Source of the DNA: Desulfobulbaceae bacterium
Lineage (GTDB): Bacteria; Desulfobacterota; Desulfobulbia; Desulfobulbales; SURF-16
DNA length: 64,000 bases
Reading direction: 5' to 3'
NCBI GenBank assembly: GCA_020444175.1
Contig: JAHLLM010000007.1
Span: forward strand, 1-64,000
The translations under genes were made by a program, and so were the position numbers. Numbering within the stretch: position 1 is the stretch's first letter; every line of letters starts with the position of its first letter. Below the pieces are notes generated by a model. The model searched no databases and had not been told where the DNA came from. It saw only the letters and a program-made list of their open reading frames with translations. Shown one piece after another: positions 32,253 through 34,322 of this stretch.

Positions 32253-32275
32253 TTTTAAATAAGTTGCATGGTAAT

Positions 32276-32306
32276 AAAAAAGGGCGCTTTGCAAGCACCC
32301 TTTTTT
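32276..32306 (-). terminator. Rho-independent terminator of the selenoprotein rhodanese gene
   Basis: On the minus strand the RNA forms a GGGUGCUU/AAGCGCCC stem (one U-G wobble) with a three-base loop, preceded by As and followed by six Us. On the plus strand the same position is a C-A mismatch, so the minus strand is the likely functional direction. It starts about 33 bp after the stop codon of the rhodanese gene. Confidence 0.8.
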
Positions 32307-32339
32307 ATTTACTGCCGTGTTGTGAAAAATGAAAAGATT

Positions 32340-33650
32340 TTACTCTTCAGCCTCGCAGCCGTCCTCATCACATTCAACATTGGCAACAAGATATCTGGCA
32401 TTAAAACCGGCCTTAATCAGTTCCTGATACGCCATCTCGGCACGGGCACCTGTCGTACAATGGACAAGGATTTCCTTATCCTTTGGAAGGGATTCTATTT
32501 TGGCTGTCAGTTCATCCAGGGCAATATGCAGTGCATGTTCAAATTTTCCTTCTGCAGCCTCATCATTGGTTCGCACGTCAAGAATAACAGAACCAGCTGG
32601 ATTTTCTTCGACAACCCTGTTGAAATCAGCCAGGCTTACTTCGCCTTTTTCAAGCACTCTGACCCAGACAATTTCATCGGGAGAGGGAGACGTGTCAAGA
32701 GAATTGCCGGCAGCAACCCAGCCATCTATTCCTCCATCCACATAAGAAGTAGTTTTATATCCCCAGCTTTTGACGAGTTTGTATGCCTGTTTCACCTCTT
32801 TTCCATAAAGGACAACAGGTGCTGACATATTTGAAGGAAAATCATCCTCGGCATCTTCGAGGTCTGCCATTGGAATATTATAGGCCCTGGGAATATGACC
32901 TTTTTTGTATTCTTCCGAGCTGCGAAGATCAACAAGAACATGATTGCCGGTTTTTATGAAATTTTCACTGGCAACCACCGCATGGCCGGTTTTTTTCCAG
33001 CCAGGTACACCCTTGAGCATGACCTTAACATTTGTATATCCGTTTTTAACCGCCAGACCGGCGGATTGAGTGCTCATGCCTCAGGTAGGCCCCCCACAGA
33101 AAAAGATTATTTCAGTGGCTTTGTCTTTGGGTAAAACAGCTAAAGTGTCTTTTTTTATTTTTGCAACAGGGATAGATACGGCAGTGGGTAAGGAGCCTTC
33201 GTCAAAACGTTTGCCCGGACGAGAATCAACAAGATAATAATCTCCGGCCTTGGCAATCAAATCGGCGACATAGTCCGGCTGTACCTCGACAACACCTTTG
33301 GGGAGTTTGGCAAGCTTGGGCTTGATAACCGTGGCAACCTTGTCTTTGCCGACAACCTGATATTCAATGATGGCGGCATGTCCCTTTTGTGCATGTTCAA
33401 CGCCTTTGGTGTCATCAGTGAATTTAACCATCATGGTTTTAGCGTCTTTTCCCTTACCAACGCTGATTGAGATGGTTTTTGCTTTATTGGATTTACCGAC
33501 GACCTTGCCTTTATAAACATTTTTTTCGGCTTGCGTTGCAGCCGAAGCAGGTTCAGAAGCCAGGCTCGGCTGTGAGGTCACACAGTCGGCAACCAGAAAT
33601 GATGAGAAAATCATTACAGGAATGAGTTTCCGTAATATAACCTTGCGCAT
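32340..33650 (-). CDS. Secreted triple-domain rhodanese, predicted selenoprotein (in-frame UGA)
   Basis: Read through a single in-frame TGA (33081-33083) this gives 436 residues. Order: signal peptide (about 1-32), an OB-like basic segment (about 43-115), rhodanese domain 1 with FFCGGPT-U-GMST (C185, Sec190), domain 2 with DLRSSEEY but no catalytic cysteine (YGKE), and domain 3 with DVRTNDEA and HCTTGARA (C398). The frame and rhodanese homology continue without a break across the TGA (AGLAVKNGYTNVKV follows). Related rhodaneses have CGGPTC at this place, so U replaces a cysteine. A hairpin with a GGUCU loop sits 16-31 bases after the UGA. The start has AGGAGGG upstream. Without Sec insertion it would end after domain 1's loop. 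Confidence 0.85.
33050..33064 (-). promoter_or_regulatory. Bacterial SECIS-like hairpin
   Basis: On the minus strand, CCGCC (33064-33060), loop GGTCT (33059-33055) and GGCGG (33054-33050) form a perfect five-pair stem with a five-base loop. The loop begins 21 bases after the TGA at 33083-33081. E. coli fdhF has the same GGUCU loop for SelB binding at nearly the same distance after its UGA. The match supports reading the TGA as selenocysteine. Confidence 0.8.
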
Positions 33651-34322
33651 ATAATCCCTCCTGAAAAAAAAATAAAAATTATTGGTTTAAAAAAGGCCAA
33701 CCAACTTTAAAATTAAGTTCATCAAATGCGTTTTTTTGTCATTTACGAATATTTCTCATCCATTGGGTAACAATGTACAATGAATAAAAAAACAACTCAA
33801 CATAAAAAATAAAGATAATAATGAAATGCTTATATAGCGCGTACTGCTTTTATCTCTTGCCCGCAGGTAACATTCTTAAATAACATTATTTTTTCTCCGA
33901 CCTCTTCAAAAAAGAAATTTATTCCTTTTAAATTGTTTGAACGGGAAAAAACGTTTCTCAAATTCATAATTTGGGATTTTGAACCCAACATAATAAAATT
34001 CATAACTTGAGATTTATCTTTTCCAGCAAAAACAGAAAATGAGTTGCTGGAAGTGGCTGAAAGGTCTATTATTGGAACAATTTTAAATGACGTATTCTCC
34101 TAAAGAGATACAGAAAAAACATCTTGATTCAACGAGTTACCTATCTGCCAGCTACACTCTAATGCACATTATGAATCCTGATACAAAATATAATGCCTTT
34201 TAAGGCTGCATTATTATTTATCAGGTACCATCAGGTTCGACAGATCGCCATGTCAGCAACCTTTAGGTGAGTGTCTATCCATAAAATGACAAATACAGGT
34301 TACCAAACTTTCACAATATCTT
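33651..34322. other. AT-rich intergenic region without a recognisable gene
   Basis: These 672 bases separate the divergent selenoprotein and GT9-like genes. They contain no open frame of convincing length and no tRNA-like fold that I can see. A loose direct repeat (aaattcataatttgggattt near 33958 and aaattcataacttgagattt near 33996) is visible. A family F element end lies at 34267-34290. Promoters for both flanking genes are expected here but I cannot place them. Confidence 0.6.
34267..34290. repeat. Isolated end of a family F inverted-repeat element
   Basis: The sequence gtgagtgtctatccataaaa closely resembles the left end of the element at 28842-28990 (gcgagtgtctgtccataaat), with a few mismatches. 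No matching partner arm is visible nearby, so it is probably a relic. It lies 33 bp before the start codon of the GT9-like gene. Confidence 0.45.

Follow-up and report, generated by a model that had tools for sequence, protein, structure and literature searches.

In the window analyzed here, a stretch of 64,000 nucleotides on contig JAHLLM010000007.1 of a Desulfobulbaceae bacterium, two open reading frames of 189 aa and 245 aa (the second counted from the first ATG past the TGA) share one frame on the minus strand and are divided by a TGA. The question raised by this locus is whether that TGA is a stop codon or is read as selenocysteine (Sec) and, if Sec is inserted, what the joined protein might do. 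The literature leaves open how sulfur-disproportionating and sulfate-reducing Desulfobulbales carry out the first step in the handling of elemental sulfur (PMC12998232, PMC8780430). For periplasmic rhodaneses, strong expression is reported from Desulfurivibrio alkaliphilus and expression from cable bacteria (PMC13047784).

The reading frame, its homologues and the Sec machinery

Translation confirmed the original prediction of a single TGA dividing two ORFs of the same frame that join into a protein of 436 aa with Sec at residue 190 (U190). The gene runs from an ATG at 33650 to a TAA at 32342-32340, the TGA is its sole interruption, and the residues around it are IIFFCGGPT-U-GMSTQSAGLAV. The features of the gene are as follows:

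33656..33662, minus strand: ribosome-binding site AGGAGGG, 5 nt upstream of the ATG at 33650, read from the sequence
32340..33650, minus strand: complete selenoprotein gene, 436 aa including U190, by translation with TGA as Sec
33083-33081, minus strand: in-frame TGA giving U190, from a homologue column that holds Sec or Cys only
33050..33064, minus strand: bacterial SECIS (bSECIS) hairpin CCGCC-GGUCU-GGCGG, from four core pairs supported comparatively and from codon constraint
32273..32309, minus strand: hairpin with a GC core and a U-run, 3' of the TAA (fold -21.4 kcal/mol, z = -5.7), likely an intrinsic terminator

The window holds another same-frame TGA at position 1522 (minus strand), between ORFs of 307 and 391 codons, with flanks that resemble the end of one ordinary gene and the start of another and not a Sec site.

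Homologues of the protein were numerous. In the taxonomic family of the source genome, 14 of 22 genomes had a match, and nearly all full-length matches contained exactly one TGA; full-length homologues were 62-64% identical and had the TGA in the same column. In the order Desulfobulbales the protein family was found in 168 of 258 genomes. Among the best 128 matches in the order (E <= 4.6e-157), tallied by hand, 105 had an in-frame TGA and 23 had no stop. Of 109 distinct genes aligned at the codon level, 86 had TGA and 23 had TGC or TGT at the U190 column, so that position 190 was Sec or Cys in every aligned gene. We looked for homologues that end at the TGA, as an ordinary stop would predict, and found none, the Cys versions instead running through the column as a single continuous ORF. 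The TGA itself was present in over a hundred assemblies, among them complete isolate chromosomes (e.g., Desulfosediminicola flagellatus, Desulfopila sp.), which speaks against a sequencing error. To judge from these comparisons, the triple-rhodanese selenoprotein is a large conserved family and not a single oddity.

A tree of the 109 proteins, made by a quick method with the Sec column removed, required at least 11 changes between Sec and Cys, nine of them forced by well-supported branches. Two of the Cys genes (L109 and L121) retained a nearly intact hairpin sequence, as would be expected of recent Sec-to-Cys conversion. With so many changes, and with the RNA signal described below relaxed in the Cys copies, the family offers a clean natural experiment.

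Beyond the order, 38 of 395 genomes sampled at the phylum level had a match at E 1e-70 or better, and most of those outside Desulfobulbales had one TGA. The loops of distant members include UTMS, UPFS and UVLS, and some of these proteins have an N-terminal CxxCH heme motif. In a group of divergent members (L189, L190, L207, L209-L213) the Sec loops read CGGPTUTMS, CGGVTUPFS, CIGFSUVLS and CQGFRUVLS, and some combine Sec and the heme motif in one protein. The source genome also encodes a TGA-free paralogue (L226, 4014-5363 on contig C59) with an N-terminal CxxCH motif, rhodanese domains and 31-33% identity to the window protein.

The genome needs the means to insert Sec, and the original prediction would have been undermined had these been missing. 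All were found in the source genome (5.42 Mb, estimated to be 100% complete): a tRNA-Sec gene with anticodon UCA (67 bits), SelA (622 bits), SelB (368 bits) and SelD (379 bits), each above its curated cut-off. The selD gene of this genome (L215, C79:89271-90194) has an in-frame TGA of its own at the catalytic position (AAG-U-AAK, near the N-terminus) followed downstream by a hairpin, and its product is thus a selenoprotein too. SelB was matched in 216 of the 258 genomes and was for that reason a poor discriminator in a co-occurrence test across the class; among the matches listed, the TGA-bearing genomes with no SelB match (G004, G018, G079, G128 and G129) are fragmented or incomplete assemblies.

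A conserved SECIS hairpin follows the UGA

The hairpin had been proposed to begin 16 nt past the UGA, and it was located there, at 33064-33050, with its apical loop beginning 21 nt past the UGA. In single-sequence folding its stability was like that of shuffled sequence (z = +0.56), the core being merely 4-5 bp, and comparative tests were used because this result was not significant. An Rfam scan of the window gave no match. The pattern TGA-N17-CGCCGGTNNGGCG occurred once in the 5.4 Mb genome versus zero times for the reversed control.

If the region were constrained by its protein alone, ordinary synonymous variation would be expected after the TGA. Synonymous variation in the 86 Sec genes was analyzed over 221 testable codon columns, with the 23 Cys genes for comparison. 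The six columns of lowest synonymous entropy among the 221 were codons 196, 197, 198, 199, 200 and 202, with normalized entropies of 0 to 0.17 against a gene median of 0.90. Gly198 was GGT in 85/85 Sec genes, and Ala197 and Ala200 were GCC and GCG, respectively, each in 85/86. Although the amino acid at codon 196 varied (S/N/V/A/I/T), the codon ended in C in 75/75 genes of the first set, because that base is a partner in the outer stem. In the Cys genes, by comparison, all four synonyms were used at Ala codons 197 and 200, and Gly198 was mostly replaced. All four pairs could form in 86/86 Sec genes versus 6/23 Cys genes.

When phylum-level members were added, the four core pairs and a 5-nt loop were present in 90/90 distinct Sec sequences. 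The outer pair was C-G in 84, G-C in 3, U-A in 2 and A-U in 1; a third pair was C-G in 88 and U-G in 2; and the loop-closing pair was C-G in 88 and A-U in 2. A G occupied loop position 1 or 2 in every one of the 90. For L047 and L178, it was synonymous changes on both sides of the stem that made the compensation. Codon constraint and compensatory change together thus bear out the proposal that the hairpin is a SECIS element. Codon preferences were also noted at Gly186 (33093-33095), which is GGA in 59/84 Sec genes versus 0/23 Cys genes, and at Lys202 (33045-33047), which is AAA in 76/78 Sec genes versus 10/15 Cys genes; the recoding signal may reach past the hairpin.

Could the TGA nevertheless be a true stop, the product being truncated after one domain, or a second protein being made by re-initiation at the ATG that follows? 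That ATG lies one codon past the TGA (TGA GGC ATG), and none of the 86 typical Sec genes lacks M192. However, distant Sec members with UVLS, UPFS and UALS/UALT have no ATG at the site, and the Cys homologues, which often have L or F at 192, are one continuous ORF. A stop here would cut domain 1 within its active-site loop, and it gives no reason for a codon-level constraint on the hairpin that is relaxed in Cys homologues; we regard it as very improbable. A sequencing error, frame damage or a pseudogene would look identical in one genome, since a single base change turns TGC or TGT into TGA, but the same TGA recurs in about a hundred assemblies with the frame conserved on both sides, and the chance of this explanation is negligible. 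Genome-wide reassignment of UGA was also considered and was rejected, as TGA serves as the stop of other ORFs in the window and the UGA-reading tRNA is tRNA-Sec. Taken together, the TGA-bearing homologues, the conserved SECIS, the Sec machinery and the synonymous constraint led us to reject an ordinary stop, a sequencing error and two separate genes. That the UGA at 33083-33081 is read as Sec and the full 436 aa protein made is, from these comparisons, close to certain.

Domain anatomy and a proposed sulfur relay

The joined protein had been described as having three rhodanese domains, and Pfam PF00581 matched it in three stretches (1.1e-41; 141.8 bits versus a gathering threshold of 22.2). 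A confident AlphaFold2 model (pLDDT 88.9, pTM 0.75) had a beta domain at about residues 45-112, three alpha/beta domains and an end hairpin. The protein is laid out as follows:

33558..33650, minus strand: predicted signal peptide, approximately residues 1-31, from the sequence
33315..33518, minus strand: N-terminal all-beta barrel (OB-like) domain, residues ~45-112, from the AlphaFold2 model
32967..33299, minus strand: rhodanese domain 1 with C185-GGPT-U190-GMS, residues ~118-228, from Pfam and structure comparison
33096..33098, minus strand: C185, canonical rhodanese catalytic Cys position, by alignment to BH2092 (YCWGPAC)
32697..32966, minus strand: rhodanese domain 2, without the loop cysteine, residues ~229-318, from Pfam
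32376..32648, minus strand: rhodanese domain 3 with loop HC398TTGAR, residues ~335-425, from structure comparison
32355..32372, minus strand: C-terminal CxxxxC tail (C427, C432), predicted beta hairpin

Residue conservation was counted across the alignment of the 109 homologues. C185 was invariant (109/109). The loop cysteine of domain 2 was absent in all 109, position 282 being Y/F and position 283 G/S/A/D. In domain 3, C398 was kept in 108/109 and R403 was essentially invariant. The lack of a loop cysteine in domain 2 and the Cys of domain 3, noted from the one sequence, thus held in all homologues and in all but one, respectively. The accompanying claim that Sec takes a place where related rhodaneses have cysteine was correct as to the column, which is Sec or Cys; it does not extend to the catalytic residue, as U190 does not replace the catalytic-position C185 but would act as its partner. 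In the alignment to BH2092, C185 opens the active-site loop and U190 closes it as the sixth residue.

The original prediction had not noticed this offset of U190 from the catalytic position, nor the OB-like domain, the CxxxxC tail and the lipoprotein-like relatives. In Pfam the OB-like domain gave a sub-threshold match alone, to the BipA C-terminal domain. The tail strands span residues 424-428 and 431-435 in the model, and the last 22 residues contain two Cys in 105/109 homologues and three in 3 more. Cys23 falls at the lipobox position; the column holds Cys in 75/109 homologues, with GC usual in relatives and an atypical VADC in the window protein. Most relatives look like lipoproteins on this basis, and we are unsure of the predicted lipidation of the window protein itself.

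In rhodanese chemistry, the Cys at the catalytic position accepts sulfane sulfur, and the sixth loop position is normally the residue adjoining that sulfur. U190 would therefore be well placed to resolve a persulfide or to take the sulfur. We infer that the protein is most likely exported and acts on sulfane sulfur (polysulfide/thiosulfate), as a transferase or a reductase, via a C185/U190 pair. The hairpin directly after the UGA would recruit SelB and Sec-tRNA, and the protein would be exported, probably as a lipoprotein in most relatives. C185 would be loaded with sulfane sulfur, the donor being polysulfide, thiosulfate or a persulfide. The U190 selenol would then attack the C185-bound sulfur, and either U190 would take over the sulfur or sulfide would leave and a C185-S-Se-U190 bond would form. 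Domain 3, through C398, and the CxxxxC tail may hand on sulfur or reducing power, domain 3 being a possible recipient of sulfur given its likeness to the rhodanese domain of a persulfide reductase, and the dithiol tail may also reset the C185/U190 pair. Domain 2 would be structural. We give this reading as a whole (Sec insertion, export, C185/U190 sulfur chemistry and relay) a probability of about 0.72. As to its parts, handling of sulfane sulfur outside the cytoplasm seems likely, and we would put a specific C185/U190 redox pair at even odds.

Gene context was also surveyed. The window gene stands alone; no conserved operon partner was found across about 75 Desulfobulbales loci, and no conserved porin or cytochrome cluster lay beside the Desulfobulbales members. 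Heme-bearing Cys relatives in L220, L231, L232 and L233 lie near a gene for a TAT-exported molybdopterin oxidoreductase, with an NrfD polysulfide-reductase-type membrane subunit or homologue also near L220, L232 and L233, and a DUF3373 porin or homologue near L220, L231 and L232. In L220 (5511-12569) the DUF3373 porin, the heme-bearing multi-rhodanese, the TAT molybdopterin oxidoreductase and the NrfD subunit form one cluster, and L231-L233 are similar, although not all parts are present in each. It is possible that the L220-type cluster encodes a reductase for polysulfide or thiosulfate together with a rhodanese dedicated to it. An operon of rhodanese, molybdopterin and polysulfide reductase genes has been reported to be highly expressed in D. 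alkaliphilus (PMC5516251). As the clade of the window protein has no conserved neighbor, this polysulfide-reductase context is an analogy and not a linkage, and coming from a distant, heme-bearing Cys clade it may lend modest support to such a role for the window protein.

Two other accounts of the Sec protein deserve weighing. Its role could be thiol redox or oxyanion (selenite/arsenate) chemistry and not sulfane sulfur, as CxxxxU with a C-terminal dithiol tail resembles the wiring of thiol oxidoreductases, and the Geobacter ext cluster has a rhodanese-like lipoprotein, ExtH, and an ExtI that is needed to reduce selenite and tellurite (PMC5877670, PMC6148476). Domain 3, however, retains a canonical persulfide-forming loop and the hosts of the triple-rhodanese selenoprotein are sulfur-cycling bacteria, and we think such a role unlikely. 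A slightly better case, still a doubtful one, can be made that U190 is itself the sulfur-accepting nucleophile, carrying sulfur on selenium, with C185 merely resolving: Sec is the stronger nucleophile, and published rhodanese selenoproteins have been described with a UxxS-type motif that begins at Sec (PMC13188914). Against this, the BH2092 alignment places C185, right after a strand, at the canonical catalytic position, where it is invariant. We thus retain the reading in which C185 would accept the sulfur and U190 would act upon it.

The family looks to be exported, is built of sulfur-transfer domains, and occurs in most genomes of the order, where it mostly requires selenium. We tentatively suggest that it could consist of extracytoplasmic selenoenzymes, belonging to sulfur-cycling Desulfobacterota, whose Cys-Sec rhodanese loop cleaves sulfane sulfur reductively or relays it via a second active rhodanese and a dithiol tail at the C-terminus. 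Each would then be a self-contained polysulfide transferase/reductase that depends on selenium and has no metal cofactor.

Comparison with known rhodaneses and selenoproteins

The original prediction had cautioned that rhodanese selenoproteins were already predicted, rightly so, as a 2026 review lists five rhodanese-like selenoprotein forms by domain, motif and accession (PMC13188914, Table 1). As in the window protein, forms 1-5 have Sec in or near the rhodanese active-site loop. Form 1 (UxxS, Geobacter sulfurreducens WP_010941598.1), compared by its listed motif alone, shares UxxS with the window protein and may be a relative or the same family. For form 3 (CxU, NF041203) the window protein scored 45 bits, below the cut-off of 115, and for form 5 (TsoB, NF045694) it scored 52.3 bits against a cut-off of 805. 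TsoB is a rhodanese/DsbD fusion with two Sec, unlike the window protein with its one, although the UxxxxU motif listed for it parallels C185xxxxU190. No NCBIfam model covers the window protein, so automatic annotation may split the gene at the TGA, and surveys of sulfur genes could miss or halve the family. Our searches of PMC found no paper on a triple rhodanese, nor on rhodanese selenocysteine in Desulfobulb-, and the combination of an OB-like domain, three rhodanese domains and a CxxxxC tail, with its order-wide conservation, is new in the sense that no description was found in the literature searched. ExtH (49 kDa), encoded with extIJKL in the Geobacter ext cluster (PMC5877670, PMC6148476), is by its description similar to the window protein in size and, like it, likely exported.

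Structural comparisons gave nothing relevant in a Foldseek search of viral structures. EanB and YnjE are multi-rhodanese chains like the window protein (Foldseek E 1e-11 and 2e-9) but have no Sec, and their whole-chain superposition was poor (rmsd ~15-17), from which the domain arrangement of the window protein is different. Domain 1 lay closest to the rhodanese domain of 3tp9 (VIA Z 18.0, rmsd 1.3, 103 residues) and to BH2092 (PDB 3nhv, 3o3w; 31% in Foldseek, and for 3o3w VIA Z 17.3, rmsd 2.0, 104 residues), a single-domain protein whose CxxxxC loop has Cys where domain 1 has Sec. Domain 3 resembled the rhodanese domain of the NADH-dependent persulfide reductase Npsr (3nta/3ntd; VIA Z ~15, rmsd ~2, 93-95 residues aligned; 30% identity over residues 331-436 of the window protein), a flavoprotein that lacks Sec and has a single rhodanese domain. 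It also had a weak sequence match (E 7e-4) to the Wolinella Sud sulfide dehydrogenase (1qxn), a single-domain rhodanese without Sec that serves as a periplasmic carrier of polysulfide sulfur supplying Psr.
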